Assembly (NCBI RefSeq): GCF_000377645.1
Contig: NZ_KB898471.1
Span: forward strand, 310,001 to 374,000
Length of the DNA stretch: 64,000 bases
Reading direction: 5' to 3'
Source of the DNA: Thiomonas sp. FB-6
GTDB taxonomy: Bacteria > Pseudomonadota > Gammaproteobacteria > Burkholderiales > Burkholderiaceae_C
Below the pieces are notes generated by a model. It saw only the letters and a list, made by a program, of their open reading frames with translations, was not told the origin of the DNA and searched no databases. The position numbers were made by a program, and so were the translations under genes. Below are positions 45,946 through 61,058 of this stretch, piece by piece; the stretch's first letter is position 1; each line of letters begins with the position of its first letter.

Positions 45946-46021
45946 CCAGGGGCGCTACGCCCTGGTGACCATGTGGATCGGTGGCGGCCAGGGGATCGCC
46001 GCGATTTTCGAGAGGTGTTGA
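45851..46021 (+). pseudogene. 3'-end remnant of a thiolase (acetyl-CoA acetyltransferase) gene
   Basis: 56 codons and a TGA encode [18 protein letters not shown], then a helix, then [20 protein letters not shown], the conserved C-terminus of thiolases with the catalytic His (GHP) but with the usual CxG Cys replaced by Trp (MWIGGG). The upstream 330-plus residues are absent; the preceding sequence is the chemoreceptor gene on the other strand. It is therefore a truncated remnant joined by rearrangement, not a gene. Confidence 0.8.
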
Positions 46022-46107
46022 ACGGCGCGCTGCGGGGCCTGGCCGGCCGCCTCCAGCGCCTCGAATCTCCTGAATGACCGCCATCGAAGCCTCGGCGGTG
46101 TGGCGCA

Positions 46108-46236
46108 CTCGTGCTCGACCGCATCGATCACGTACTGCCTCAATTCGGAGATCAGGCCGGTGTCCTCCGCCACCGGGATGAACAGGTCGGGGCGGACCGC
46201 GCGACCGTCGGCGCGGGGCCAGCGAAGCAGCGAGTC
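46108..46236 (-). pseudogene. fragment of an EAL (c-di-GMP phosphodiesterase) domain
   Basis: The minus-strand translation DSLLRWPRADGRAVRPDLFI followed by PVAEDTGLISELRQYVI matches the first conserved part of EAL domains (EALLRW...G.V.P..FIP.AE..GLI), with the EAL triplet itself reading DSL. Neither the start nor the rest of the domain is present. With the thiolase remnant it shows that 45834-46270 is built from broken genes. The rest of the 45946-46381 gap holds the regulatory site at 46279. Confidence 0.6.
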
Positions 46237-46278
46237 CCCAGTGTAGAAGGGCGATCGCGCGGGCAGGCCGGCGCCCGC

Positions 46279-46325
46279 CCCCCTCCACAGGAGGGGGGAC
46301 GCGCCGGGACCCCGCGCCTACTCTG
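46279..46325 (+). promoter_or_regulatory. palindromic activator site plus -10 element, copy A (tauD operon)
   Basis: CCCCCTCC-ACA-GGAGGGGG (46279-46297; arms extend to 9 bp), then 19 nt, then CCTACTCTG (46317-46325). The predicted transcript would start near 46331, 51 nt before the dioxygenase ATG, and the palindrome would be centred near -43, a class II activator position. Copies B (52572-52618) and C (54331-54377) have the identical arrangement. Confidence 0.7.
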
Positions 46326-46381
46326 CGTCCCACGGGTGCCCACGAGTGCATCGACGCCCGCAGAACGAGAGAGACAAGACC

Positions 46382-47299
46382 ATGACCAGCATGACCGCCG
46401 CCGCGCCCGCGGTGCTGTCCGCCGCGCGCAGCGCGAGCGCCCCCCGCGTCGAGCCCCTGACCTGTTCCATCGGCGCCGAACTCAGCGGCATCGACCTGGG
46501 CGACGCCGCGGAGGACGACCAGCTGTTCCGGGTCGTCTACGAAGCGCTGCTGCGCCACAAGGTGCTGTTCCTGCGCGAGCAGAGCTTCGAGCGCATGTCC
46601 CGCCAGCAGCACGTGGCCTTCGCCAGGCGCCTGGGCGAACTCGAAGACCATCCGATGGTGCCGAGCCACCCGGACGCTCCCGGACTGGTGCAGATCTACA
46701 AATCCCCCGACAACCCGCCCGAGCGCTACGAGAACGCCTGGCATTGCGACGGCACCTGGCGCGAGACGCCGCCGCTGGGTTGCGTGTTGCGCTGCATCGA
46801 GTGCCCGCCGGTGGGCGGCGACACCATGTGGGCCAACATGGCCCTGGCCTACGAGAAGCTGCCGCAATCCGTCCAGCAGGAAATCGAGGGCCTGATCGCC
46901 AGCCACAGCTTCAGTGCCTCCTTCGGGGCGGCCATGCCCCAGGAGCGGCGTCTGGACATGAAGGCGCGCTACCCGGACGCCGAGCATCCGGTGGTTCGCA
47001 CCCATCCGGAGACCGGCGAGAAGGTGCTGTTCGTGAACGCCTTCACCACCCACTTCGTCAACTATCACCAGCCGCGCAACGTGCGTTTCGGCCAGGACTA
47101 CAACCAGCGCGGACAGGACCTGCTGCAGTACCTGATCAGCCAGGCCTACGTGCCCGAGTACCAGGTGCGCTGGCGCTGGAAGCCCTTCAGCGTCGCGATC
47201 TGGGACAACCGCAGCACCCAGCACTACGCGGTGATGGACTACCCCCCTTGCCACCGCAAGATGGAACGAGCCGCCATCGTCGGCGGCAAGCCTTTCTGA
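46382..47299 (+). CDS. TauD/TfdA-family Fe(II)/2-oxoglutarate-dependent dioxygenase
   Basis: 305 residues. The iron-binding facial triad is His121 and Asp123 (AWHCDGTW) with distal His281 (RSTQHYAVMD), and the 2-oxoglutarate Arg follows in CHRKMERAAIVGG. NAFTTHFVNYH is a typical TauD-family segment. Members hydroxylate sulfonates, phenoxyacids, betaines and similar acids, releasing succinate and CO2. It is the first gene of a four-gene operon driven from copy A of the palindromic promoter. The specific substrate is unknown; association with a BKACE enzyme argues for a small carbon skeleton rather than taurine alone. Confidence 0.88.
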   Translation: MTSMTAAAPAVLSAARSASAPRVEPLTCSIGAELSGIDLGDAAEDDQLFRVVYEALLRHKVLFLREQSFERMSRQQHVAFARRLGELEDHPMVPSHPDAPGLVQIYKSPDNPPERYENAWHCDGTWRETPPLGCVLRCIECPPVGGDTMWANMALAYEKLPQSVQQEIEGLIASHSFSASFGAAMPQERRLDMKARYPDAEHPVVRTHPETGEKVLFVNAFTTHFVNYHQPRNVRFGQDYNQRGQDLLQYLISQAYVPEYQVRWRWKPFSVAIWDNRSTQHYAVMDYPPCHRKMERAAIVGGKPF

Positions 47300-47334
47300 G
47301 CCTGCCCCAGGCCACTGACACGAGGAGCCCCAAC

Positions 47335-48393
47335 ATGAACTTCATCGATGGATCGCTGTTTCCCGAGAATCAGGAGAAGCTGGTCATCACCTGCGCCCCC
47401 TACGGCCCCGAGTGGATGCCCGAGGACTTCCCCGAAGACATCCCGATCAGCATCGCCGAACACGTGCAAAAGGCCGTGGATTGCTACAACGCCGGAGCGA
47501 GCGTGCTGCACCTGCACGTGCGCGAGCTCGACGGCAAGGGCTCCAAGCGCCTGTCCAGGTTCAACGAACTGCTCGCCGGACTGCGCGAGGCGGTGCCTGA
47601 CATGATCCTGCAGGTGGGCGGCTCCATCTCCTTCGCCCCCGAGGGCGAGGGCGAGGCCGCCAAGTGGCTGTCGGACGACACCCGGCACATGCTGGCCGAG
47701 CTCAGCCCGGCGCCGGACCAGGTGACCATCGCCATCAACAGCAACCAGATGAACGTGGTCGAGCAGATGTGCGAGCGCGATCTCGCCGGCACCTCGCTGG
47801 CGCGGCCCGACCTGTACCGCGCCTACCGCGAAATGACCATTCCGGCGGGCCCCGAGTGGGTGGAAGAACACATCCGCCGGCTGTCGGCCAAGGGCATCCA
47901 GACCCACTTCCAGCTGGCCAACATCACCCAACTGGAAACGGTCGAGCGGATGATGCGCCGCGGAGTCTGCAACGTCCCGCTGATCCTGACCTGGGTGGCG
48001 ATCGGCGGCGGGTTCGACGCTCCGAACATTTACAACCTGGCGAACTTCGTCCGCGCGGTGCCCGATGGCGCCGTGCTCACGCTGGAGTCCTCCATGCTCA
48101 ACGTGCTGCCGGTCAATATGATGGCCATCGCCATGGGCCTGCACGTGCGCTGCGGAATCGAGGACAACATCTGGACCCAGGACCGCAAGGAAAAGATGAG
48201 TTCGGTGCGCCAGATCGAGCAGCTGGTGCGCATTTCGCGGGAGTTCGGACGCGACATCGCCGATGGCAGCGAAGCGCGCCGCATCTATCGCATCGGCGAG
48301 TTCTACAGCCACGCCGACGAGGCCCTGGCCCGCAACGGCTTCGCCCCCAACCGTGCGCAGGCGGGAAAGGCTGCGTTGCAGCGAGCGGCGTGA
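47335..48393 (+). CDS. BKACE-family beta-keto acid cleavage enzyme (DUF849)
   Basis: 352 residues. The family metal site His59/His61 (ASVLHLHVRELDGKGSKR), QVGGSISFAP, the TIAINSNQMNVVEQM segment and VRCGIEDNIWTQDRKEKMSS are BKACE hallmarks. These zinc enzymes condense a beta-keto acid with acetyl-CoA to give acetoacetate plus a new acyl-CoA (Kce in lysine fermentation, dehydrocarnitine cleavage in carnitine use). GAGGAG precedes ATG 47335. A thiolase remnant nearby and an acyl-CoA ligase in the same regulon fit a CoA-dependent catabolic pathway. It is longer than Kce (about 275-310), so a distinct subfamily. Confidence 0.85.
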   Translation: MNFIDGSLFPENQEKLVITCAPYGPEWMPEDFPEDIPISIAEHVQKAVDCYNAGASVLHLHVRELDGKGSKRLSRFNELLAGLREAVPDMILQVGGSISFAPEGEGEAAKWLSDDTRHMLAELSPAPDQVTIAINSNQMNVVEQMCERDLAGTSLARPDLYRAYREMTIPAGPEWVEEHIRRLSAKGIQTHFQLANITQLETVERMMRRGVCNVPLILTWVAIGGGFDAPNIYNLANFVRAVPDGAVLTLESSMLNVLPVNMMAIAMGLHVRCGIEDNIWTQDRKEKMSSVRQIEQLVRISREFGRDIADGSEARRIYRIGEFYSHADEALARNGFAPNRAQAGKAALQRAA

Positions 48394-48409
48394 GCCGGTG
48401 GGGTCGTCC

Positions 48410-48988
48410 ATGACCGCCACGGTGGTGATCGTGCCGGGGCTGCGCGACGCGGCCCCGCGGCACTGGCAAAGCCTGCTGGAGGCCGGTCTGCGTGAGCGGG
48501 GCCGCGAGGTGCTCGCGGTGGCCCCGATGGGGCGCGACGCGCTGGACCGTGCACAGCGGGTGGCGGCGCTGGACGAGGCCATCGGCCGGGTCCACGGTCC
48601 GGCCTTGCTCGTGGCCCACAGCGCGGGCTGTCTCACCGTCGCGCATTGGGCCTCGGTCCGTGCCGGCGCCTCCGAGCTGGTCCGCGGGGCGCTGCTAGCG
48701 GTACCGCCGGATTTCGAGACCCCGATGCCCGCCCCCTACCCGGGCCTCGAGGCCCTGCGCGCCAACGGCTGGCTGCCGGTTCCGCGCAAGCGCCTGGGCT
48801 TCAGGGCCATCGTCGCGGCGAGTCTCGACGATCCCCTGGCGAGCATCGGCCGGGTTCGGCGGATGGCCCTCGACTGGGCTGCCGAGTGCGTCGAGCTGGG
48901 AGCGGTCGGGCATCTGAACCCGGGCTCCGGCTACGGTCCCTGGCCCCGCGCCGAGGAATTCCTTCAGCAGCTCGACGTGTCGAGCTGA
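48410..48988 (+). CDS. small alpha/beta hydrolase of the RBBP9/YdeN type
   Basis: 192 residues. VVIVPGLRDAAPRHWQSLLE starts the fold, the nucleophile is Ser71 in LLVAHSAGCLTVAHW, and the C-terminal GAVGHLNPGSGYGPWP contains the catalytic His in the RBBP9-specific context. These serine hydrolases act on small esters or amides; physiological substrates are poorly known. It lies 16 bp after the BKACE gene, ahead of the quinone oxidoreductase gene, and so is part of the copy A operon. Confidence 0.85.
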   Translation: MTATVVIVPGLRDAAPRHWQSLLEAGLRERGREVLAVAPMGRDALDRAQRVAALDEAIGRVHGPALLVAHSAGCLTVAHWASVRAGASELVRGALLAVPPDFETPMPAPYPGLEALRANGWLPVPRKRLGFRAIVAASLDDPLASIGRVRRMALDWAAECVELGAVGHLNPGSGYGPWPRAEEFLQQLDVSS

Positions 48989-49012
48989 TTCCAGAACCAA
49001 CAGGAGAACGAC

Positions 49013-49984
49013 ATGGCCAAGGCGATCCGCCTTTCGCGAACCGGCGGGCCGGAGGTGCTCGAGCTGCAGGACGTCGAGGTCGGCGACCCCGGCCCCGGCG
49101 AGGTCCGGCTGCGCCACAGCTACATCGCGGTGAATTTCATCGACGTGTACTTCCGCACCGGGGTCTACCCGCTGCCACTTCCATCCGGCCTGGGCTCGGA
49201 TGCCGTCGGCGTGGTCGAGGCGGTGGGCCCCGGGGTCACCGAGGTCCGGCCCGGTGACCGGGTCGGCTATCTGATCGGGCCGCAGGGCGCCTACGCCGAG
49301 CGCCGGATCCTTCCGGCCGCGGTGCTGATTCCCCTTCCCGCCGGCATCGATGACCGCACGGCCGCCTCCTTGATGATGAAGGGCATGACCGTGCAGTACC
49401 TGTTCCGGCAGGTGTTTGCGCTGCAAGGCGGGGAAACCATTCTCTATCACGCCGCCGCCGGCGGCGTGGGCCTGCTGGCCTGCCAGTGGGCGCGTGCGCT
49501 CGGGGTGACCATGATCGGCACCGTCAGCAGCGACGAGAAGGCCGAGATCGCCCGGCAGCACGGCTGCGCGCACACCATCGTCACCTCGCGCGAGGACATC
49601 GCCGCGCGCGTGCGCGAGCTGACCGGCGGCCGGGGCGTGCCCGTGGTGTTCGACTCGGTCGGCAAGGACACGCTGATGGCCTCGCTGGACAGCCTGAGCC
49701 CGCGCGGCTCGCTGGTCAGCAACGGCACCAGCTCCGGCCCCGTGATCGTGGACAGCCAGCTGCTGGCCGTCAAGGGCTCGCTGTGGATGACCCGCCCGGC
49801 CATGATGCACTACATCCAGCCGCGGGAGCACATGCTGGCGATGGCCGACGAACTCTTCGGACATGTGCTGGCCGGACGCATCCACAGCGAACCCCGGCAG
49901 GAATTCGCGCTGGCCGAGGCGGCGCGGGCGCACCAGGCGCTGCAGTCGCGCAGCACCGTCGGCTCGACCGTGCTGGTTCCCTGA
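49013..49984 (+). CDS. qorA: NADPH:quinone oxidoreductase (zeta-crystallin type)
   Basis: 323 residues, normal for QorA of the medium-chain dehydrogenase/reductase superfamily. N-terminal catalytic fold (GPEVLELQDVEVGDPGPGEV, NFIDVYFRTGVYPL), nucleotide fold with HAAAGGVGLLACQWARALG, and VVFDSVGKDT. No zinc ligands, as expected for this subfamily. AGGAG lies 9-10 nt upstream of ATG 49013. Last gene of the tauD operon; it ends at a strong hairpin. It may reduce an enone or quinone pathway intermediate or simply protect against reactive carbonyls. Confidence 0.9.
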   Translation: MAKAIRLSRTGGPEVLELQDVEVGDPGPGEVRLRHSYIAVNFIDVYFRTGVYPLPLPSGLGSDAVGVVEAVGPGVTEVRPGDRVGYLIGPQGAYAERRILPAAVLIPLPAGIDDRTAASLMMKGMTVQYLFRQVFALQGGETILYHAAAGGVGLLACQWARALGVTMIGTVSSDEKAEIARQHGCAHTIVTSREDIAARVRELTGGRGVPVVFDSVGKDTLMASLDSLSPRGSLVSNGTSSGPVIVDSQLLAVKGSLWMTRPAMMHYIQPREHMLAMADELFGHVLAGRIHSEPRQEFALAEAARAHQALQSRSTVGSTVLVP

Positions 49985-49990
49985 AAATGC

Positions 49991-50023
49991 CCGCGGGCAG
50001 GCAGCCAGGCTGCCTGCCCGCGG
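49991..50023. terminator. bidirectional hairpin terminator between qorA and the MFS gene
   Basis: Perfect 16-bp inverted repeat CCGCGGGCAGGCAGCC / GGCTGCCTGCCCGCGG with a single central base (effective loop about 5 nt). It occupies the 52-bp gap between two convergent operons, preceded by GAAAAT on the plus side. A T-run is missing, so termination may need Rho. Confidence 0.75.
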
Positions 50024-50036
50024 CTACGCCAGAAGC

Positions 50037-51347
50037 TCAATCCCCCACGCTTTCGCGCCAGGCCCTGATGCGCTGCAGGTCCTGCGCGTAGAAGCGGCGC
50101 CCGATCCAGAACGCACAGGTGGCCGCCAGCGAGGCCAGCGGCATCCATTGCAGCGCCCCCTGCAGGCCGATGCGGTCGGCGAGAAAGCCCATCACGAAGG
50201 GCCCGGGAGCCAGGCCCAGCAGGTTGTTGGCGATGGTCAGGGTGGCGAAGGCCGTCGCATGCACGGCCACCGGCGTGAGGTTGGCCACCATGGCGCCGGC
50301 GGGCCCCGCGGTGCCCGCGGCGAAGAACATGCCCAGCGCCAGCACCAGCGTGGCCGCCGGCCCGGGGGGCAGGCGGAAGGCGGCTCCCAGCAGCAGGGCC
50401 GTGAGCAGGCAGTAGGCCATGGCCATGATCCACTTGCGCGAGGGGTCGTCCCGGCACAGCCGATCCGTGGCGATTCCGCAGACGATCATGCCGGCGGCCC
50501 CCACCAGCACGAACATGCCCGCGCTCAAGGCCGCGCGGTCGGGCGCCATCCCCGCATAGCGGTTGAAAAAGCTGGGCAGCCAGGCGATCAGGGCAGCCAT
50601 GATGAACAGCTGCAGACCGCTGCCGGCGTAGGCGCAGAGCACGGACACGCTGCCGAACAGGCGGCCCAGCAGCGTGCGCAGCGGCACCCCGGACCCCCGG
50701 GCTTCGCGCGAGGGGGGGCGGCCGCCGACGCGCCGTTCGGTGACCACGACCAGGTACAGGCCGGTCAGCACGATGCCGAACAAGGCCATGCCGCCGAAGG
50801 CCCAGCGCCAGCCGAAATGCACCGCCAGCGCGCCTCCGAAGGCCATTCCCAGCACCGAGCCCACGGCGCCGCCGGCCATGAAGGAGCCGGTCAGGGTGGA
50901 GCGCAGGCTGGGCGGAAACATGCTCAGCACCAGGGCGACGCCGACACTGCCGTAGGCCGCCTCGCCGACCCCGACCAGGAAGCGCGCGAACAGCATCTCG
51001 CGGTAGCCCGAGGACCATGCGCAAAACAGCGTGGCCGCGCTCCACAGCAGGGCCATCAGCGCGATGCTGCGCACGCGCCCGAAGCGATCGGCGGCCAGCG
51101 ACAGGGGGAAGGTCAGAAGCCCGGTCAGCAAGGCGACGACCCCCGCGAGCGAGCCCAGCTGGGTGTCGGACAGGCCCCATTCGGCCTTGAGCAGCGGAAA
51201 CACCGCGTTGAGGACCTGGCGCGACATGTAGTCGGACAGCAGCAGCCCGAAGATCAGGCCGAACACGACCCACGCGTAGATGCGGGGACGGGTCGCCCCG
51301 GCCGATGCCGTGTCCGCCTGCGCGGGTTGTGTGGCGTAGATGGCCAT
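50037..51347 (-). CDS. MFS transporter, ACS/aromatic acid-type
   Basis: 436 residues with twelve membrane helices. LSDYMSRQVLNAVFPLLKAEW, then GVVALLTGLLTFPLSLAADRFGRVRS (the MFS loop 2-3 motif), FLVGVGEAAYGSVGVALVLS and FMAGGAVGSVLGMAFGG. The sequence resembles the anion:cation symporter and Spinster-like branches that import organic acids. It follows the porin gene by 11 bp and both should be expressed from copy B of the palindromic promoter: porin for the outer membrane, MFS for the inner membrane. The substrate is presumably that of the TauD/BKACE/ligase pathway. Confidence 0.85.
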   Translation of the reverse strand: MAIYATQPAQADTASAGATRPRIYAWVVFGLIFGLLLSDYMSRQVLNAVFPLLKAEWGLSDTQLGSLAGVVALLTGLLTFPLSLAADRFGRVRSIALMALLWSAATLFCAWSSGYREMLFARFLVGVGEAAYGSVGVALVLSMFPPSLRSTLTGSFMAGGAVGSVLGMAFGGALAVHFGWRWAFGGMALFGIVLTGLYLVVVTERRVGGRPPSREARGSGVPLRTLLGRLFGSVSVLCAYAGSGLQLFIMAALIAWLPSFFNRYAGMAPDRAALSAGMFVLVGAAGMIVCGIATDRLCRDDPSRKWIMAMAYCLLTALLLGAAFRLPPGPAATLVLALGMFFAAGTAGPAGAMVANLTPVAVHATAFATLTIANNLLGLAPGPFVMGFLADRIGLQGALQWMPLASLAATCAFWIGRRFYAQDLQRIRAWRESVGD

Positions 51348-51358
51348 GAGCTTGCTCC

Positions 51359-52507
51359 TCAGAAGGAATGGCGCAGACCGACGGTCATGCCGGCCGAACC
51401 CTGCCCCATGGCCCCGACGAAGGCGTCGGTGGCCGAGCCGATCGCGAAATTCGTATCAGGCCCGTTGCTGATGCGCGCGTAGCTGGCATACAGGTTGGTC
51501 TGCCTGGACAGCGAATAGCTGTAGCCGATCGCGTATTGCTTCGCGGTGCCGTACATCGCCGTTCCCAGCAGGTTGATGCTGCGCATGCCGTAGTCCGTGC
51601 GCGCCTCGGCTACCGAGGCCATCACGGTGCCCGCCCCCACCGGCACGCGCACCCCCACGACCATCGACCGCGCACTGCCAGCGTTGTAATCCGCCTTGGC
51701 TTGTTCGTACAGCGCGGAAAGCGTGGCCACCGGGAAACGGTAGGAAGCGCCGATCTGCCACCCCGACAGGGTTCCGTCGTTGACCCCGTTGGCGGGATCG
51801 AGCATGGCCGGCAGCCGCAGGTTGGTGACCGCCGCGTAGGCCACCGCCAGCGCCAGGGGGCCGTCGACGTAGCTGGCGCTGGCCCCCATGGAACGGCTGA
51901 CCCGGGAACTGCTGGGGGTCGTACCGGGAACCGCGGTGGCACTCGGCGCGAAGGAATACGACACGCTGCCCACCAGGCCGTGCGCCTCGGGGCTGATGTA
52001 GACCACGCCCTGGCTCAGGCGCGAGAGTCCGTACTGGTTGATGATCGACAGGTTGGTGTAGGCGCCGGTCGTGCCCCCGCCGAAGGGGTCGAAGCGGACC
52101 TCGTTCTTGTACATGCGGGTCATGTCGCGCCCGCCCGCGATGGTGCCCCACGGGCCCTTGAGCGCGGCCCAGGTACGGCTTTGCATGAACCCGCCGCCCA
52201 CGCAGTAGCCGCCCGCGGGGGCCTTGGTGTTCTGGTTGGTTCCAGAGGCGCAGAAGCCCGATTCGATGTCGAAAATGGTTGCGAGGCCGCCGCCCAGGGG
52301 CTCGACGCCCTTGACTCCGATCACCGACGGGGATTGAACGCCCGAGCTCAGCTGGCTGACCGAGTGCGTCGGTCCGGAGCCGTTGCCGATTCCGTCGATG
52401 TGGGTGACGCCGAGATCGATCACGCCGTAGAGCTGGACGTCTCCGGCCGCCAGCGCGGAGCCGGTACATGCGCCGAGCGTGGCGAGCGCGAGCAGGGTCT
52501 TTTTCAT
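51359..52507 (-). CDS. Gram-negative trimeric porin (Burkholderiales type)
   Basis: 382 residues. The signal peptide KKTLLALATLGACTGSALA is followed by GDVQLYGVIDLGVTH, the standard mature start of betaproteobacterial OmpC-like porins. Repeated aromatic beta strands and the C-terminal GSAGMTVGLRHSF, ending in Phe, complete the barrel. ATG 52507 is preferred over 52516 because the GAGGAG ribosome site abuts 52516 but lies 9 nt from 52507. The 151-nt upstream region carries copy B of the palindromic activator site, so expression is probably substrate-induced. Confidence 0.93.
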   Translation of the reverse strand: MKKTLLALATLGACTGSALAAGDVQLYGVIDLGVTHIDGIGNGSGPTHSVSQLSSGVQSPSVIGVKGVEPLGGGLATIFDIESGFCASGTNQNTKAPAGGYCVGGGFMQSRTWAALKGPWGTIAGGRDMTRMYKNEVRFDPFGGGTTGAYTNLSIINQYGLSRLSQGVVYISPEAHGLVGSVSYSFAPSATAVPGTTPSSSRVSRSMGASASYVDGPLALAVAYAAVTNLRLPAMLDPANGVNDGTLSGWQIGASYRFPVATLSALYEQAKADYNAGSARSMVVGVRVPVGAGTVMASVAEARTDYGMRSINLLGTAMYGTAKQYAIGYSYSLSRQTNLYASYARISNGPDTNFAIGSATDAFVGAMGQGSAGMTVGLRHSF

Positions 52508-52571
52508 CGGGTTCATCTCCTCGTGAGCCTTCCTGGGTTGCGGTGGCCGGCATCGTGCGTGCCGGTGAGGC

Positions 52572-52618
52572 CAGAATAGGTGGGGGTCCGGGCGCACACC
52601 CCCCTCTCGCGGAGGGGG
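52572..52618 (-). promoter_or_regulatory. palindromic activator site plus -10 element, copy B (porin-MFS operon)
   Basis: Minus strand: CCCCCTCC-GCG-AGAGGGGG (52618-52600; one arm mismatch), 19 nt, CCTATTCTG (52580-52572). TATTCT would place the transcript start near 52566, giving a leader of about 59 nt before the porin ATG. Same geometry as copies A and C. Confidence 0.7.
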
Positions 52619-52653
52619 ATAGGGTCTTCACCAAGAAGGCGCCGGATGCGGCT

Positions 52654-54300
52654 TCAGGCGATCGCGGCCGCCCACTCGCGCAGCTGTTTCTTGTTGAGCT
52701 TGCCGACACTGGTCTTCGGGATCTGCTCCACGAACAGGATGTGGCTGCGCTCCGGCACCGCATACTTGGCGACGCGATTGGAGGCCACGTGGGCCAGCAG
52801 GCGCTCGCGCACGTCGTCGACCGTGACCTGCGTGTCCGGCCTGTGAACCACGTAGGCCACGGGTCGCTCACCCCACTTGGGATCCGGCACCCCGATGACC
52901 GCCACCTCCTGCACCCCGGGGATCTCGGCGATCATGTGCTCGATCTCGATGGACGAGACCCATTCGCCTCCGGTCTTGATCACGTCCTTGAGCCGATCGA
53001 CGATCTGCACGTAGCCGTCCGGACGCACCACCGCGATGTCCTGCGTATGCAGGTAGCCGCCTCGCCAGAGCTCCTCGGATTCGGCCGGCTTGTGCAGGTA
53101 CCCCTGGGTCAGGAAGGGCGCGCGCAGCACGATCTCGCCCTGCGTGCGCCCGTCGTGCACCACGTCGCGCATGTGCTCGTCCACCACGCGCAGGTCGACC
53201 ATCGGCAGCGCTCTGCCGGTGGACACGCGAGCCCGCAGCTGCTCCTGCGGCGCCAGCTCGGGAACGAGCTGCGCCAGCGCGACGATGGGACCGGTCTCGG
53301 ACATGCCGTAGCCGCCGAACACGTCGATGCCGCGCTCCAGCGCGGCCTTGCACAGCGGAGCCGGCAACGCGGACCCGCCGATCACCACCTTCCAGCCCGG
53401 GAACCGGATGTCGCGCGCCTCGGCCAGGTCCACGATCATCTGCAGGATGGTCGGAACGCAATGCGAGAAACTCACCTGCTCGCGCTGGAGCAGTTCGAGC
53501 AGGGTCTCGGGCAGATAGCGCCCGGGGAGCACGATGCGCAGCCCGAGCAGGATCGCCACATAGGGGATCCCCCAGGCCAGCACGTGGAACATCGGCGTGA
53601 TCGGCATGTACACGTCCTGGGCGTGCAGGCGCTGTCCGTCGCGGGGCGAGCACAGCGCGGTCGCCGCCGTCAAGGCGTGCAGGACGATCTGGCGATGGCT
53701 GTAGCACACCCCCTTGGGGGCGCCCGTGGTCCCCGTCGTGTAGAACACCGCCGCGGTGGTGTTCTCATCGAAGTCCGGGAATTCGAAGTCCGCGCCGGCC
53801 GCCGCCAGCAGCTCCTCGTACTCGCCGCAGGCATCGAGTTCCCGCAGTGGCTGGCGCGCGTCGTCGCGCAGTACGACGATGCGCGGCCGCGCACGCAGGC
53901 GCGGCAGGACGGAGCCGAGCATCTCGGCGAAGTCGACGTGCACCAGCAGCACCGAGGGCTTCGCGTCGTCCAGGGTGTAGGCGATCTGTTCAGGCGACAG
54001 CCGGATGTTCACCGTGAACATGGTCGCGCCCATCATCGGAACCGCGAAATAGGTCTCCAGGTAGCGCGGGCTGTCCCAGTCCATGATGCCCACGGTACTT
54101 CCGCGGCGCACGCCCATCGCCTGCAAGGCGCTGGCCAGTCGCCCGACGCGTTCGCGCCAGGCGGCGTAGCTCATGCGCCTTCCGTGGCGGTCGCAGATGG
54201 TCTGCGCGCCGTGAAGCGCCAGGCTGCGATGCAGCAGCTGCTTGATCAGCAGCGGATAGGCATAGGCGGAAGCCGCCGAGGGGGGCAGGTCGTCGTGCAT
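52654..54300 (-). CDS. AMP-forming acyl-CoA ligase/synthetase
   Basis: 548 residues. The P-loop-like adenylation motif is AVFYTTGTTGAPKGVCYSH (about residue 180), then FGGYGMSETGPIVAL (A5), RPDGYVQIVDRLKDVIKTGG (A7/A8) and the catalytic Lys in KTSVGKLNKKQLRE near the C-terminus. The sequence is of the medium/long-chain or AlkK-like group. It activates a carboxylic acid as its CoA thioester in the cytoplasm, supplying the pathway that includes the BKACE enzyme. ATG 54300 is chosen because the open frame's earlier start at 54336 lies inside the -10 element of copy C. Confidence 0.9.
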   Translation of the reverse strand: MHDDLPPSAASAYAYPLLIKQLLHRSLALHGAQTICDRHGRRMSYAAWRERVGRLASALQAMGVRRGSTVGIMDWDSPRYLETYFAVPMMGATMFTVNIRLSPEQIAYTLDDAKPSVLLVHVDFAEMLGSVLPRLRARPRIVVLRDDARQPLRELDACGEYEELLAAAGADFEFPDFDENTTAAVFYTTGTTGAPKGVCYSHRQIVLHALTAATALCSPRDGQRLHAQDVYMPITPMFHVLAWGIPYVAILLGLRIVLPGRYLPETLLELLQREQVSFSHCVPTILQMIVDLAEARDIRFPGWKVVIGGSALPAPLCKAALERGIDVFGGYGMSETGPIVALAQLVPELAPQEQLRARVSTGRALPMVDLRVVDEHMRDVVHDGRTQGEIVLRAPFLTQGYLHKPAESEELWRGGYLHTQDIAVVRPDGYVQIVDRLKDVIKTGGEWVSSIEIEHMIAEIPGVQEVAVIGVPDPKWGERPVAYVVHRPDTQVTVDDVRERLLAHVASNRVAKYAVPERSHILFVEQIPKTSVGKLNKKQLREWAAAIA

Positions 54301-54330
54301 GGCGTCGGTACGGTCGGAATGGGGTCGACC

Positions 54331-54377
54331 CAGCATAGGCAGACGCCAGACGCCGCGCCCCCCTCCGGAGGAGGGGG
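54331..54377 (-). promoter_or_regulatory. palindromic activator site plus -10 element, copy C (acyl-CoA ligase gene)
   Basis: Minus strand: CCCCCTCC-TCC-GGAGGGGG (54377-54359, perfect 8-bp arms), 19 nt, CCTATGCTG (54339-54331). TATGCT implies a start near 54325 and a 25-nt leader. The site begins 7 bp after the stop of the MalT-type regulator gene. Confidence 0.7.
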
Positions 54378-54384
54378 CGCCCCT

Positions 54385-57060
54385 TCAATCGTCCGCGCCG
54401 AGGAAGCCCAGCACGCGGGCCCGCACGACCACCTGCCTGCGCGAGCCGGCATCGAGCTTGGCGAACAGGTTCTTCAAGTGCCACTTGATCGTCGCCTCGC
54501 CCACGCCCAATGCCCGCGCCACCTCCTTGTTGGAGAGATTGCGCGCGAGAAGCTCCAGGATGGCGCGCTCCTTCGGGGTCAGCACCGAGGCCGTGCCGGC
54601 CGCGCGCATGGGCGCGTCGGCCGGCGGCCCGGGGGACGCAACCGCTTGCGGCGCGGGGTACGGGTCGTCGCGAAGACCGGCCATGGCCGAGGCCACGCCC
54701 GGATGGCTGTCCTGCAGACTGCGCCGCAGGCCGCTGGCCCTGGCCAGGCCGACGGCCTCGCCGAGCAGCGCCGAGCCGTCGCGCCCGGAGCGCTCGGCGA
54801 CGTATGCACGCAAGGCCATGGCCACCACCTGCAGGCGTCCGGCGCCTTGCGCGACGGCTGCCTGCTGGGCCGCGGCGAGCAGTTCCTCCGCCTCGCCCCA
54901 CCGATGTTCCGCGATGGCGGTATGGGCCCGCGCCGCGTTGACCAGCACCGTCGCCGCGCCTTGCCACAGCGGCCCGGTGGGGTGATCGCCCCGGACGAGC
55001 ACCTGGTCGATGCGCGCGAGCAACGTTCGGCAGGTCTGGACACGCCCTAGCGCCGCGTGCAGTCGCACCTGCTCACCGAGCCCGGCCAGGCTCAGCCTGG
55101 GCAGGCCCCGGGCATCGCCGGCCGCCTCCAGCGCCTGCGCGATGTCCAGCGCGTGATGTTCGCGGCCCTGGGCCGCCGCCACGCGCACGGCCGTACGCAT
55201 GCCCAGCAGCAGCGTGTCGGGAAGCCCGGAGTGTTCGAGCACATCCAGCCGGTCGGCCTGCACGGCAAGCGCCTCGTCCAGGCGATCGGCCTCGTACAAC
55301 ACCAGCGCGAGCAAGGCAGCGAGCATGCAGGCCAGGGGATGGCGGCGCCCGAGCTCGGCCTCGCTGGTCTGCAGCGCGCGCTGCAACAGGGGTTCGGCCA
55401 GCCGCAGCTGCCCCGCCCATACGTGGCTCAAGGCATGGATCAGCTCGCTCCAGCGCAGCGCGTAGACCTGGCCGGGTCCGAAGCGCCCGATCGGCGCATG
55501 CTCCTGGTGGCGCCTGGCCCGCGCGGGCTGCCCCTGCAGAATGTCGAACATGGCCAGACGATTCGCATGCATCTGCAACAGCCGCGCCTCCCGCGTGGGG
55601 GGCGGCGCCTGCGTCCACGGCTGCATGATGCGCACGTACGCGTCCGGGTCGTCGGCGAACAGCGCCGCGCCGCTTTGGATCAGGGCGCATTCATAACGGA
55701 TCCCCTCGTCCTGCCGCGCATCCTCCAGGATGTCGCGGACCAGGGCCTGCGCCTGGCGATGGCGCTCCCCCAATGCCAGGGCCCAGGCCGCCGCCATGCG
55801 CAGGCGCGGACGCCGCGCGAGTTCGCCCGCCGGCAACTGGTCGAGCCAATCCAGCATGGAGGCCAGCCGGCCCTGCATGACGGCCTCGTAGAAACACTGT
55901 TCGGCCAGGTCGTTGGCGCGCTGGTCGAGTCCCGCGCTGCGCGCGTGACGCGCCGCCTGCTCGAACATGCCCTCCCGCACGAACCACTCCATGGCGCGCC
56001 GGTGAATCTCCGAGCGCTGCTCCACGGGCAGTCGGGCGAAGCGAGCCTGAAGCGCCCCGCGCGCCAGGGCATTGCAGCGAAACCATCCGGCGTCATCGAC
56101 GGAGAAGAACAGCGGCGTGGTCTGGGCCAGCCGTGCCAACGTATCGCCCGCCTCGGGCCGTCCGCTCAGAGCCTCGCACAGCCTCGGGTGCAGCAGGTCA
56201 CAAGCCGAGGTGATGGTCAGGAACGAGACATCCTCCTCGGACAGACCGCTGCACAGGGGTTCGAACAGCGCATGCTCGGGATGCCGCGGATCCACGGCAC
56301 CGACCAGCTCCTGCAGATTCACCCCTCGCTGCAGCGCTCCGAGCGCCAGGTGAATGCCCTGGGGCCAGCCATCGGCGCAGTCGTGGATTCTTGCCGCGGC
56401 ATCGGCATCCACGCTGGATCCGAGGCGCGTGCGCAACAAGGCGAGGGTCTCGTCGAGCTGAAAGCGCAGCGTGTCCGCGCCGAGAATCGCGCATCCGCCG
56501 TAGCCCACGAGATCCGCGACGGCCTGTTCCAGCGGATCCCTCGACGCGACGACCATGCGCAGATTCGGCGGCAGGTTGTGCAACAGGTAACTCAGGGCGG
56601 CCTGAGCTTCCTCGCAGAGATTCGCGGCCTCGTCGATCATCAGGACGATTCGCAAGGGCGTCATCGCCACTTCGGCGAGCCACGAGGTCATGACTTCCCG
56701 CAGTCCGTGAAACACGGTGGTCCCGGACAATTGGGCCGCGCCGAAGCCAGCGCGCGCGCAGCCAATGCGAACCGCCAGGGCCAGGGCCGCGGCGAAACGC
56801 CGTGGGGACATCTGGGAGTCCGGGCCGAGCCAGGCCACGGCGTCCCCCTGCTCCAGGGTCTGCTGGCGCCACTGCGCGAGCAGCGAACTCTTGCCGAAAC
56901 CCGGCGGCGCTTGCAGCAGCACCACCGGCACGTCGGCCAGGGGGCCCTGCGTGAGGCTCAGGCGCGGACGGTGCAACAGCTGCCGCGTGGGTCGCGGCGG
57001 GGTGCAGCGCAGAACGAGTTCGCTCAGTGAGGGGTCGACGCCACTCAGCGCGTGGGACAT
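54385..57060 (-). CDS. MalT-type LuxR-family ATP-dependent transcriptional activator
   Basis: 891 residues, the length of MalT. The N-terminal STAND NTPase has Walker A at residues 50-59 (QAPPGFGKSS) and a Walker B region IVLMIDEAANL, followed by a winged helix and a long TPR-like superhelix (about 350-800). The C-terminal LuxR helix-turn-helix is LTPKERAILELLARNLSNKE followed by GVGEATIKWHLKNLFAKL. Such proteins multimerise on inducer and ATP binding and activate promoters with repeated or palindromic sites. Its gene directly precedes copy C, and three palindromic promoters surround it, so it is the best candidate regulator for this catabolic regulon. The inducer is unknown. Confidence 0.88.
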   Translation of the reverse strand: MSHALSGVDPSLSELVLRCTPPRPTRQLLHRPRLSLTQGPLADVPVVLLQAPPGFGKSSLLAQWRQQTLEQGDAVAWLGPDSQMSPRRFAAALALAVRIGCARAGFGAAQLSGTTVFHGLREVMTSWLAEVAMTPLRIVLMIDEAANLCEEAQAALSYLLHNLPPNLRMVVASRDPLEQAVADLVGYGGCAILGADTLRFQLDETLALLRTRLGSSVDADAAARIHDCADGWPQGIHLALGALQRGVNLQELVGAVDPRHPEHALFEPLCSGLSEEDVSFLTITSACDLLHPRLCEALSGRPEAGDTLARLAQTTPLFFSVDDAGWFRCNALARGALQARFARLPVEQRSEIHRRAMEWFVREGMFEQAARHARSAGLDQRANDLAEQCFYEAVMQGRLASMLDWLDQLPAGELARRPRLRMAAAWALALGERHRQAQALVRDILEDARQDEGIRYECALIQSGAALFADDPDAYVRIMQPWTQAPPPTREARLLQMHANRLAMFDILQGQPARARRHQEHAPIGRFGPGQVYALRWSELIHALSHVWAGQLRLAEPLLQRALQTSEAELGRRHPLACMLAALLALVLYEADRLDEALAVQADRLDVLEHSGLPDTLLLGMRTAVRVAAAQGREHHALDIAQALEAAGDARGLPRLSLAGLGEQVRLHAALGRVQTCRTLLARIDQVLVRGDHPTGPLWQGAATVLVNAARAHTAIAEHRWGEAEELLAAAQQAAVAQGAGRLQVVAMALRAYVAERSGRDGSALLGEAVGLARASGLRRSLQDSHPGVASAMAGLRDDPYPAPQAVASPGPPADAPMRAAGTASVLTPKERAILELLARNLSNKEVARALGVGEATIKWHLKNLFAKLDAGSRRQVVVRARVLGFLGADD

Positions 57061-57586: not shown

Positions 57587-58456
57587 TCAGGCGCGCTGCC
57601 AACGCAACAGGGGGTAGCGGATCAGGTAGATCAGCCGGGTCGACAGGGTGCTCAGCACGCCGATCGTGATCATTCCGACCACGATGTTCGAGTACTGGAT
57701 CAGCTGATAGGCGTTCCAGGTGTAGTAGCCGATGCCGGCGCGTCCCCCGATCATCTCCCCCGCGACCAGCGAGAACCAGGAAACCCCCATTCCGATCGCC
57801 GCGCCCGAGGTGATGGACGGCAAGGCTGAAGGAATGATCACGCTGAACAGCACGTTCCGTTCCTTCGCGCCAAGCGTCTTCGCCGCGTTGATGAGGGCGC
57901 CGGGCGTTGCCTCGACCCCCTGGATGGTGTTCAGCACGATGGGGAAGAAGGCTCCGAGAAAGGTGATGAACAGGATGCTTTCCTCGGTGGTCGGCCAGAT
58001 CAGGATGGCCAGGGGGATCCAGGTGATGGCCGGAATGGGGCGAACGATTTCGACGTAGGGCATGAAGGCCCACCGGAACCATTTGTATCGCCCGATCGCC
58101 ACGCCCATCGCCACTCCGAGAATGGCCGCCAAGCCAAACGATCCGGCAATGCGCAGAACGCTGACCCCGACGTCGACATAGAAAGCCGGCGTCTGCAACG
58201 CGCCCAGCAGTGCCGATCCCACGTCCCGGGGAGTCGGCACGTTCTCGAAATCGAGGTAGAGGTGCGCGCCATGGCTCGCCAGGAATTGCCAGAGCAGGAG
58301 TCCGAGCGCGATCGCGGTTCCTCCGATCAGGATCGGAAAAAGAAATCCGAGCCTGCCTCGCACGGCACGGCGAACGGCCCGGCGCCGCGTCGAACCTGCA
58401 CGCCCGTCCACCCGTCGTCGGGCGCCGGGGTTCATCGAGATGGCCGCCTCGTTCAT
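57587..58456 (-). CDS. ABC transporter permease, SsuC/TauC/NrtB type
   Basis: 289 residues with about six membrane helices. The cytoplasmic EAA loop is VEATPGALINAAKTLGAKER followed by SVIIPSALPSITSGAAIGMG, typical of the nitrate/sulfonate/taurine (NitT/TauT) permeases. AGGAGG lies 8 nt before ATG 58456. It follows the binding-protein gene by 50 bp; the ATPase of the set is encoded 5 kb upstream at 63029 in the same direction, separated by the etf and reductase genes. The substrate is an anionic or zwitterionic small molecule, not determined. Confidence 0.87.
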   Translation of the reverse strand: MNEAAISMNPGARRRVDGRAGSTRRRAVRRAVRGRLGFLFPILIGGTAIALGLLLWQFLASHGAHLYLDFENVPTPRDVGSALLGALQTPAFYVDVGVSVLRIAGSFGLAAILGVAMGVAIGRYKWFRWAFMPYVEIVRPIPAITWIPLAILIWPTTEESILFITFLGAFFPIVLNTIQGVEATPGALINAAKTLGAKERNVLFSVIIPSALPSITSGAAIGMGVSWFSLVAGEMIGGRAGIGYYTWNAYQLIQYSNIVVGMITIGVLSTLSTRLIYLIRYPLLRWQRA

Positions 58457-58506
58457 GGCATGTTCCTCCTTGGAGTTCCTGGGATCCACTACGACAGCGT
58501 CAGGCG

Positions 58507-59865
58507 CTACGCGGCAGCGCGCAACTGCGTGAAGCTGAGAATGTTGCCTCCCTTTTCCTTTTGCTCCCTGAGGGCCTCGCCCTTGGTGAGGTAGGCGTCG
58601 ATGGAACTTCCATCCTTCACGTACCAGGCGGTTTTGCCGAACATTTTCAGGCCGGATCGGGCGTCATAGACATAGACCGCGTCGATGCCTTTGCCCTTCC
58701 CGGTCAGCTGGCCCAGCGCCTTGAACATGTCGGCGTTGGTTCCGTATTGCTTGATTCCCTCGCCCGCGACCCAGATCTCCGGCGGCATATGGGCATCGCC
58801 TTGCGGATTATTCAGGGTGCCCGCCTGCTTCGCATAATTCAGGCCCATCTCGCCATACGCGGTCTTGAGATAGCTGGCATCGACCCATTGGCGCATGTTC
58901 AGCGGCGGTACATCGGCATACTTCGCCAGCAGGCCGTGATCGTAGGCCAGGGTATCGAGCCATTTGGCCTTGATGGTCGGGTCGAGGGTCAGGTAGCCAC
59001 CGCGGCTGAAATACAGGTAGAGAACCTCCTTGGGAATCATGGTCCAGGCTGCCATTTTCTTGCTGGCCATGTAGGGGTTTTCGGCGATCCACTGATCGGC
59101 CGCGATCACGGCTTTCGCATAGGCGACGACGATTTCCGGATATTTCTGCGCGAAGGCCCGGGTCACCACCACGCCGTGCAGGTAGGGAGTCTTCGTCTCG
59201 GCGCCGGAGTAGATCATGCGCCCGGTGCCCTTGTACTCCATGTATTCGGTCATCGGACAGAAGTCGGCATGCGCATCGATCTTCCTGGCGGCGATGGCCG
59301 TGATCCCGACCATGGGGGTCTGGTTGGAGACCTTCAGGTCGGAGTACTTCAGTCCGGCTTGCTGCGCCATTTCGTACAGCATCCCCCAGGCGGAGCTTCC
59401 GATCGGCACCGAAATGTCCTTTCCAACCAGCTGCTTGACGCTGGTGATCGGCGACGACGTCGGCACCGCGATGCTGTTGCCAGCCCCGTCGAGGTTGTAG
59501 GCCGTCATGCTGAACAGGATCGACCGGTTATCGCGGGTCTGCTGGAATTTCGCGCCGTTGACGACCAGGGGATAATCACCCATCACGCCGAAGTCGAGCT
59601 TGTTCGCCAGCATCATGTTCGTGATCGGCGCGCCCGAGCTGTAATTCCGCCAGACGATGTCGTAGCTGACCCCCTTGTACTTTCCCGTGTGCGGGAGGTA
59701 CTTCTCCAGCAAATGAAGCCCCTTGATGGCGACCCCCGCCGGGTAGGTATCGGTGCACATGCTCTGATGCCCGATGCGGATCGTGATGGTCTGCGCATCG
59801 GCATTCGAGGCAAGAATGCCCGGAAGCGACAGGGCGGCTGCAATGGCTAGGCATTTGGCGGGCAT
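58507..59865 (-). CDS. ABC transporter substrate-binding protein, NrtA/SsuA/TauA-like, with C-terminal extension
   Basis: 452 residues. Signal peptide KCLAIAAALSLPGILASNADA; periplasmic domain with IRIGHQSMCTDTYPAGVAIK, then MLANKLDFGVMGDYPLVVNG and LVGKDISVPIGSSAWGML. The family usually ends near residue 320-340; here about 110 extra residues follow (QAGTLNNPQGDAHMPPEIWV, DAVYVYDARSGLKMFGKTAW), of no family I can name. AGGAG precedes the ATG. It feeds the adjacent permease. The leader region has three GCGAGA hexamer repeats. Confidence 0.85.
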   Translation of the reverse strand: MPAKCLAIAAALSLPGILASNADAQTITIRIGHQSMCTDTYPAGVAIKGLHLLEKYLPHTGKYKGVSYDIVWRNYSSGAPITNMMLANKLDFGVMGDYPLVVNGAKFQQTRDNRSILFSMTAYNLDGAGNSIAVPTSSPITSVKQLVGKDISVPIGSSAWGMLYEMAQQAGLKYSDLKVSNQTPMVGITAIAARKIDAHADFCPMTEYMEYKGTGRMIYSGAETKTPYLHGVVVTRAFAQKYPEIVVAYAKAVIAADQWIAENPYMASKKMAAWTMIPKEVLYLYFSRGGYLTLDPTIKAKWLDTLAYDHGLLAKYADVPPLNMRQWVDASYLKTAYGEMGLNYAKQAGTLNNPQGDAHMPPEIWVAGEGIKQYGTNADMFKALGQLTGKGKGIDAVYVYDARSGLKMFGKTAWYVKDGSSIDAYLTKGEALREQKEKGGNILSFTQLRAAA

Positions 59866-59930
59866 TTCTGACTCCTGCTAACGAGTGCACGGGAACGGAA
59901 GGCGGCGTCACGGTGCCTGGGGAGCATGCA

Positions 59931-59948
59931 GCGAGAGCGAGAGCGAGA
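59931..59948. repeat. three tandem GCGAGA hexamers in the leader of the binding-protein gene
   Basis: GCGAGA occurs three times head to tail 66 bp upstream of the binding-protein ATG. The remaining gap 59866-60113 is unusually AT-rich for this window around 59970-60030 and includes TTGT-TATG-ACAA, possibly the promoter/operator. Confidence 0.6.
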
Positions 59949-60113
59949 GCGGGCGCTCGGCTCGACAGGACTTGTTATGACAACGTATCGTTAGCAAATG
60001 ATGTGCCAGCGAAATTCCGTGAAAATCTCCCTGTTCTGGTTCATTCGGGGGGGAATCGCCGCGAGGCCCGGTCCAACAAGGGGCAGCCCGCACAAAATGA
60101 AGGCGCGGACCGG

Positions 60114-61058
60114 CTACGCGGGGCTCGCGAACGCGCCCGAGAGGGCGGGCACGACGTCGAACAAATCGGCCACGAGGCCGAAATCGGCCACCCCGAAAAT
60201 GGGGGCCTCGGCGTCCTGGTTGATGGCGACGATGAGCTTGCTGTCCTTCATGCCGGCCAGGTGCTGGATCGCACCCGAGATGCCTACGGCCAGGTACACC
60301 TGCGGCGCGACGATCCGGCCCGTCTGCCCGACCTGCCATTCATTCGGCGCGTACCCCGCGTCGACCGCTGCGCGGCTGGCTCCCAGCGCCGCGCCCAGGC
60401 TTTGCGCCAGCGGACCCAGCAGGGACTCGAAGTGCTCCCGGCTTCCCAGGCCGCGTCCGCCGGACACCACCACCCGCGCGGACCCGAGTTCGGGGCCTTC
60501 GCCACCGTCCATGTCGCGCTCGACGAGCTGAAGCAGCCCGGAGTCGCCCGTAACGGCGACGGTCTCGATCTCGGCCTGCGCGCCACCCGCGGCGGCCGGC
60601 TCGAAGGCGCTGCTTCGCACCGTGATCACCTGCACGGCATCCAGGCCGCGCACGGTAGCCACCGCGCCGCCGGCGTAGATGGGACGGCGGAAGGTGTCGG
60701 GTGCCAGCACCTCGATGATGTCGGAAATCTGCACGACGTCCAGCACAGCCGCCACGCGGGGAAGCACGTTCCTGCCGAAGGCGCTCGCCGGCGCCAGGAT
60801 GTGGCTGTAGCGTCCCGCGACGGCCACGATCTGCGGCGCCAGATTTTCCGCCAGGCCGTCGCCCAGGTGCCCGGCATCCGCGTGCAGCACCCTGGAGACA
60901 CCGGCCACTTGCGCCGCCTCGGCGGCCACGGCGGCGCAGTCGTGCCCGGCGACCAGCATGTGAACGCCGCAGGCACAGGCGCTGGCGGCACCCACGGTGT
61001 GCAAGGTCGCGGGCTTGAGCGTGCGGCCGTCGTGTTCGGCGATGACGAGTGCGGGCAT
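60114..61058 (-). CDS. etfA: electron transfer flavoprotein alpha subunit
   Basis: 314 residues. N-terminal domain starts [20 protein letters not shown]; the C-terminal FAD-binding domain has [60 protein letters not shown] and [20 protein letters not shown], the diagnostic ETF-alpha signature. It carries electrons from dehydrogenases (or demethylating oxidases) to ETF:quinone oxidoreductase or another acceptor. It follows etfB by 13 bp. As a second, pathway-dedicated ETF next to a ferredoxin reductase it probably serves a specific catabolic oxidase. Confidence 0.95.

Follow-up and report, generated by a model that had tools for sequence, protein, structure and literature searches.

A C-rich inverted repeat at three promoters of Thiomonas sp. 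FB-6 as the candidate operator of an adjacent LAL (MalT-type) activator

Introduction

Which regulator acts at three promoters that share one GC-rich inverted repeat? The question is raised by a 64,000-nucleotide stretch of the Thiomonas sp. FB-6 genome (contig NZ_KB898471.1, positions 310,001 to 374,000; hereafter the window), in which the repeat precedes a tauD-BKACE-hydrolase-qor operon, a porin-MFS operon and an acyl-CoA ligase gene, and in which the gene for a transcription activator of the LAL (MalT-type STAND) family lies alongside. An earlier note, made from the sequence alone, had described three identical palindrome-promoter modules and named this MalT-type regulator as the candidate binder. 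The LAL proteins are a large and poorly studied regulator family, few members of which have a known target in the literature that we found, and if operator and spacing were constant, their regulons would become readable from genomes. The reading that we favour, with a probability of roughly 85% and on the strength of sequence comparison, is that the LAL protein binds the inverted repeat at the three promoters and activates the three units in class II fashion.

Results

The three modules were present where the earlier note had placed them (Table 1). Operator 2, read in module orientation, has one mismatch to CCCCCTCY-N3-GGAGGGGG, so that the word identical was a slight overstatement and the literal full pattern including the -10 element has two genomic occurrences instead of three. 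The gap between dyad and CCTAYKCTG element, counted from the sequence, is exactly 19 nt in every module, and from this element the likely ATG lies about 56 nt further on for tauD (46382), about 55 nt for the porin gene (52516) and about 30 nt for the ligase gene (54300), which agrees with the spacing and with the distance of 25-60 nt to a gene start that had been claimed. The ligase start at 54300 is the likelier one because the open reading frame (ORF) listed from 54336 would begin within the -10 hexamer. A scan of the whole genome (4,204,671 bases) found the symmetric dyad with no more than one mismatch at only these three places, in each case a short way ahead of a gene start, and the same three matches and no others came from a relaxed module pattern; the claims that the arrangement is beyond chance and that the motif is not scattered were thereby borne out. 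Under a looser dyad definition six C-rich dyads occur in the window, and TANNNT is found at 29-33 nt in only these three. A sigma-70 -35/-10 pair was not found in 46000-54700. With the hexamer taken as -12 to -7 the dyad centre would fall at about -42/-43, where a -35 element would lie, which is the arrangement expected of a class II activator site.

Modules were sought around LAL genes of relatives, where a dyad was defined by 7-nt arms with at least 6 of 7 positions complementary, at least 5 C per arm on the C strand and a spacer of 3-7 nt, and a module by a C-rich dyad whose centre lies 29-33 nt from a TANNNT hexamer. The full set of 83 LAL loci from alpha-, beta- and gammaproteobacteria (1.64 Mb) was made up of 75 loci and 8 plasmid loci, the latter being the 8 best among 349 matching records. 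These loci contained 64 modules, 63 of them distinct in sequence, and at least one module was present in 50 of the 83. Ten dinucleotide shuffles of the same loci gave 0-2 modules, and none was found in 284 kb from LAL-less relatives or in 133 kb surrounding LAL-less BKACE genes (a control of 26 loci), which supports the proposed link to the MalT-type regulator. The LAL-less relatives were represented by 17 stretches, three of them short, with a lower GC content (0.55 against 0.65), so that the shuffles and the BKACE control, which matches in GC, are the more reliable comparisons.

The composition of the locus set bears on how these counts are to be read. One scan gave 63 LAL loci, from which L053, L055 and L067 were dropped, the long LAL ORF not having been found (the dropped L055 carries a module), and the loci of the first LAL scan alone gave 40 modules in 32 of 60 loci. 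Four loci (L119, L130, L133, L135) entered the set through module-pattern matches, and when these are left out 60 modules remain, in 47 of 79 loci. One stretch entered the set twice, as L021 and L147, neither being among the loci listed with a module; L021, from a Roseateles MAG, is 100% identical over 19,901 bases to contig C43 of genome G084, which belongs to the same family as the window. The set also includes pairs of close relatives such as L009/L015, L010/L012 and L036/L042. The TANNNT criterion was chosen after the first relatives had been viewed; the plasmid loci were examined only later, and all eight carried at least one module.

The modules are also placed in a particular way. In the 75 loci, 52 of the 105 C-first dyads outside the LAL core lay near the ends of LAL ORFs, a region that makes up 11.5% of the sequence (binomial p 9e-22). 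The distance of TANNNT from the centre of these near dyads peaks at 30-32 nt (13, 6 and 4 matches, against a mean of 0.68 per position), with 23 matches at 29-33 nt where 2.1 were expected from other offsets, and the 53 far dyads gave 25 such matches against 0.8 expected. TANNNT at 29-33 nt was found at none of the 28 G-first dyads. This tight offset supports the earlier suggestion that the palindrome would be centred near -43. When palindromes of the same composition were compared over whole loci the TC-type dyad was not in excess over other C-rich types, so that only the position and the -10 offset discriminate.

In an operon-matched test, BKACE loci were grouped by whether a LAL gene was linked to them, in their flanks or elsewhere in their cluster. 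Among 150 genomes of the family, 30 of the 41 places listed were taken, one of which is the window's own, leaving 29 for comparison. At the LAL-linked loci the dyad was present in 8/8 and the module in 7/8, all seven modules pointing in the direction of the BKACE gene, whereas BKACE loci without LAL in their flanks had the module in 0/21 and a single dyad, inside the BKACE match (Fisher p 5e-6 for module against LAL presence). The operator therefore follows the regulator and not the enzymes; tauD was seen in 5/8 LAL-linked and 12/21 LAL-less loci. One locus counted as LAL-linked (L164) has its LAL gene about 3 kb outside the 4-kb locus in the same cluster, and L187, placed in the LAL-less group, has a LAL gene about 11 kb away on its contig. 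The upstream stretches of long BKACE operons (five of 10 kb, one of 9 kb) contained no module. One of these stretches (L191, genome G131), which contains a partial LAL-like ORF (51.9 bits) and a dyad but no module, was excluded from the 26-locus control.

A number of observations weigh against a strict pairing of LAL gene and operator. Counted by genome, the association is moderate and weaker than at the BKACE loci: LAL regulators are common in the family, with a match at E<=1e-40 in 49 of the 150 genomes, and the strict module occurred in 11/49 genomes with a LAL-family gene and in 5/101 without (Fisher p 0.002), the loose pattern in 11/49 and 9/101 (p 0.023). The expectation that the motif would be absent where the MalT-type gene is absent held at the BKACE loci, and the five genomes with a strict module but no LAL match at E<=1e-40 speak against it. 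The loose pattern read backwards also matched in 3/150 genomes. The exact dyad was present in 5/149 other genomes, and the seven loci taken from these had no module. The near/far split alone did not distinguish C-first from G-first dyads significantly (p 0.14). By the definition used, 33 of the 83 LAL loci have no module; the LAL proteins of these loci may use other sites, or the definition may be too narrow. Three gammaproteobacterial loci (L044, L047, L048) have the dyad with a likely -10, judged by eye, about 10 nt further out, and one LAL-linked BKACE locus (L159) has a dyad but no -10 at the expected offset. Finally, no dyad of the operator type precedes the window's own LAL gene, and there is therefore no sign of autoregulation as in Pseudomonas putida AlkS.

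Of the 12 genomes whose LAL match reached E<=1e-60, Thiomonas sp. FB-6 alone has the exact dyad, a co-occurrence which is uninformative because the relatives carry variant dyads. In two of the five other genomes with an exact dyad it stands in repeats unrelated to LAL, as three copies about 174 bp apart in genome G129 (L082/L087) and in arrays of CTCCCTCCCCCTTGACGGGGGAG-like units in genome G045 (L085); neither genome has a LAL match. The sole same-genus genome of the set (G032) gave no LAL, exact dyad, module or BKACE match at the limits used.

The predicted binder has the AAA/STAND NTPase and LuxR/GerE parts by which LAL or MalT-type STAND activators are recognised. Its N-terminal part matched AAA_22 (PF13401, 29.3 bits, cut-off 27), with AAA_16 below cut-off, and residues 825-881 at the C-terminal end matched GerE (PF00196, 55.8 bits, cut-off 23.5); the match to TPR_MalT was weak (30.2 bits, under the cut-off of 45). 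Residues 33-424, in the first half of the protein, matched the MalT structure 8bob, and the P-loop residues G54, G56 and K57 were invariant among 19 aligned LAL proteins. The helix-turn-helix stretch TIKWHLKN was likewise invariant in the 19 and exact in 60 of 75 LAL ORFs, and since it was one of six search patterns used to collect LAL loci its conservation is partly selected, a point to be set with those against the proposed pairing. An identification with E. coli-type MalT was rejected, as the match to the NCBIfam MalT model NF003420 reached 200 bits against a cut-off of 537 and the neighbours are not maltose genes.

Table 1. Promoter elements, genes of the three units and the proposed regulator gene (positions in the window)
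Feature	Positions	Strand	Sequence or family match	Remarks
Operator 1	46279..46297	+	CCCCCTCCACAGGAGGGGG	GC-rich inverted repeat, upstream of tauD
-10 element of operator 1	46317..46325	+	CCTACTCTG	hexamer TACTCT at 46319-46324, position from offset rule
Operator 2	52600..52618	-	CCCCCTCCGCGAGAGGGGG	read on minus strand, upstream of porin gene
-10 element of operator 2	52572..52580	-	CCTATTCTG	hexamer TATTCT
Operator 3	54359..54377	-	CCCCCTCCTCCGGAGGGGG	7 nt past stop codon of LAL gene
-10 element of operator 3	54331..54339	-	CCTATGCTG	hexamer TATGCT
TauD/TfdA-family dioxygenase gene	46382..47299	+	PF02668; NCBIfam taurine dioxygenase below cut-off	operon 1, first gene
BKACE (3-keto-5-aminohexanoate cleavage family) gene	47335..48393	+	NF052387 below cut-off	operon 1
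Alpha/beta serine hydrolase gene	48410..48988	+	PF06821	operon 1
Quinone oxidoreductase (qor-like) gene	49013..49984	+	PF00107/PF08240; NF008024 just below cut-off	operon 1
Gram-negative porin gene	51359..52516	-	PF13609	operon 2, first gene
MFS transporter gene	50037..51347	-	PF07690	operon 2, second gene
Acyl-CoA ligase gene	52654..54300	-	PF00501/PF13193; NF004837 above cut-off	unit 3
LAL (MalT-type STAND) transcription activator gene	54385..57060	-		proposed binder

In relatives whose LAL protein is about 47-50% identical, the tauD-BKACE-hydrolase-qor-MFS set is often found alongside, namely in three Dechloromonas, two Dyella and the metagenome-assembled genome (MAG) loci L006 and L019. 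Azoarcus sp. KH32C has the same gene set together with fatty acid-CoA ligase, DUF1302, DUF1329, YCF48 and MMPL genes, and two Paraburkholderia loci (L010, L012) have the MFS gene alone of the set. Dyads of this type also flank the LAL genes of these relatives. Before tauD, locus L019 reads CCCCCTCCACGCTGGGGGG, 19 nt, CCTAAGCT, and loci L073/L141 read CCCCCTCCTGCAAGGAGGGGG, 18 nt, CCTATTCT. The simplest account is that these LAL proteins share a single type of recognition helix and of operator, and that what varies is the pathway under control.

A variant module recurs in Burkholderia LAL loci (L026 5667, L027 7086, L037 7913, L041 7805, L064 5866), in which a CCCCCTGACAGGGGGGG-like dyad with GGTATCGTGG stands before an acyl-CoA ligase gene whose product is 51-53% identical to the ligase of the window. 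Locus L133 (genome G143) has modules at 12160 and 12761, separated by about 600 bp and lying at 2.5-3 kb from its LAL gene; tauD comes after the second.

Discussion

In the mechanism that we propose, the LAL regulator would be a ligand-controlled STAND-type activator which, with its inducer present, would bind CCCCCTC-N5-GAGGGGG through the C-terminal LuxR/GerE helix-turn-helix. The operator, centred at about -42/-43, would take the place of the -35 element at promoters that have a -10 and no recognisable -35, and the bound protein would contact RNA polymerase as in class II activation. The tauD-BKACE-hydrolase-qor operon, the porin-MFS operon and the acyl-CoA ligase gene would be switched on in this way, the substrate entering through the porin and the MFS carrier and then being activated to a CoA ester. 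What is known of MalT and AlkS leads us to infer that the LAL protein binds the dyads directly, activates and is controlled by a ligand. The acyl-CoA ligase, porin, MFS and BKACE genes together point to an organic acid or ester as the probable substrate, and the module would mark tauD, BKACE, hydrolase, qor, acyl-CoA ligase, porin and MFS genes as belonging to one catabolic route.

The MalT box GGA[T/G]GA is G-rich, as are the dyads of the window, and MalT sites are directly repeated. E. coli MalT has a STAND ATPase, MalT-like repeats and a C-terminal GerE domain, of which the ATPase and GerE parts have clear counterparts in the predicted LAL protein of the window, and the MalT-dependent malPp800 promoter has four MalT sites at which binding is cooperative with oligomerisation (PMC10427625), unlike the promoters of the window with their single symmetric dyad at one fixed position. 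AlkS, an activator of the LuxR/MalT type, binds upstream of its promoters to an inverted repeat of 20 bp (PMC8784404, PMC12740625, PMC3664771). AlkS at PalkB of Pseudomonas putida GPo1 and the AlkS of Alcanivorax are, like the putative LAL activator of the window, large MalT-like activators of a catabolic operon, and the AlkS gene lies near its targets as the LAL gene appears to do. The AlkS operator, an inverted repeat of about 20 bp upstream of or adjoining the -35 region, resembles the dyads of the window in form. The two differ in that AlkS serves alkane oxidation whereas the putative LAL targets are ligase, tauD, BKACE, porin and MFS genes, and in that P. putida AlkS controls its own promoter whereas no dyad precedes the LAL gene. 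CrbR is a LuxR-family activator whose ACTU motif was found by comparison of promoters from many species and then reporter-tested; at one target promoter this imperfect inverted repeat spans -52 to -36 (PMC5715377). It is comparable to the proposed LAL activator in family and in an inverted-repeat site overlapping a similar promoter position, but it belongs to a two-component system (PMC5715377), and its motif, e.g. TACTACCATCGTCGAAT, is unrelated in sequence to the dyads of the window. The regulon of the window is well supported, and its proposed mode of action, being AlkS-like, is already known; no description of this operator or regulon was found in the open-licence PMC literature.

We consider it improbable that some other regulator encoded elsewhere binds the dyads and that the LAL genes are mere passengers of the same clusters. 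The five genomes with a strict module and no LAL match, and the 33 LAL loci without a module, are in favour of such a regulator. However, the module stands beside LAL genes whose neighbours differ (tauD/BKACE sets, acyl-CoA ligases, porins and others), so that the common element of the loci is the LAL gene, which was also the criterion of selection, and the module is missing from all 21 BKACE loci without LAL nearby. Still less probable is that the LAL protein binds the dyads but is mainly a repressor, or has both roles, and would keep RNA polymerase from the -35 region. A site at -42 does overlie that region, and P. putida AlkS represses PalkS1 and activates PalkS2 (PMC3664771), but no -35 to compete for was found, and MalT and AlkS are activators at their main promoters (PMC10427625, PMC8784404, PMC3664771). 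The idea that the dyads form RNA hairpins (as intrinsic terminators or attenuators) or belong to dispersed repeats, and are not operators, can be given hardly any weight and was rejected, for although intergenic GC-rich inverted repeats can be terminators and exact copies lie within repeats in two genomes with no LAL match, no T-run follows the dyads, 0/4 terminator-like sites of 46000-54700 are at a dyad, the dyads stand upstream of a -10 at a fixed distance and the dyad is not repeated elsewhere in its own genome.

Activation by the LAL protein thus being the preferred reading for the window, its extension to a whole clade of LAL regulators in alpha-, beta- and gammaproteobacteria as a single operator rule (a C-rich/G-rich repeat at about -42, TANNNT, no -35), with TIKWHLKN nearly invariant, is a generalisation that we lean towards with some reserve. 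If it were true, the DNA-reading part of these proteins would be fixed while their sensor parts and target pathways are exchanged, and the regulons of many uncharacterised LAL proteins would therefore be predictable from sequence. Such promoter-regulator pairs would be ready sensors once their inducers are found.

Additional observations

Directly upstream of the LAL gene and on the same strand (57587-61058, minus strand) lie a permease-like gene, assigned by eye, and genes for an SsuA-like sulfonate-binding protein and an electron transfer flavoprotein alpha-like protein, both of which scored below the NCBIfam cut-offs. No modules were found before the genes of this stretch, which could possibly be a transport link to the TauD operon.

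The three gammaproteobacterial loci with a displaced -10 come from an Alcanivoracaceae MAG (L047), another gammaproteobacterial MAG (L044) and Marinobacter (L048). Their dyads are of the CCCCCTC..GAGGGGG type (L047 9870-9888 and 12679-12697; L044 3774 and 6747; L048 12613), with some 40 nt between the dyad centre and the likely -10, a displacement outward by one helical turn. In each of these loci the LAL gene is followed by a gene of about 916 amino acids, and in L044 and L047 it is preceded by a lipoprotein-like gene of about 772 amino acids.

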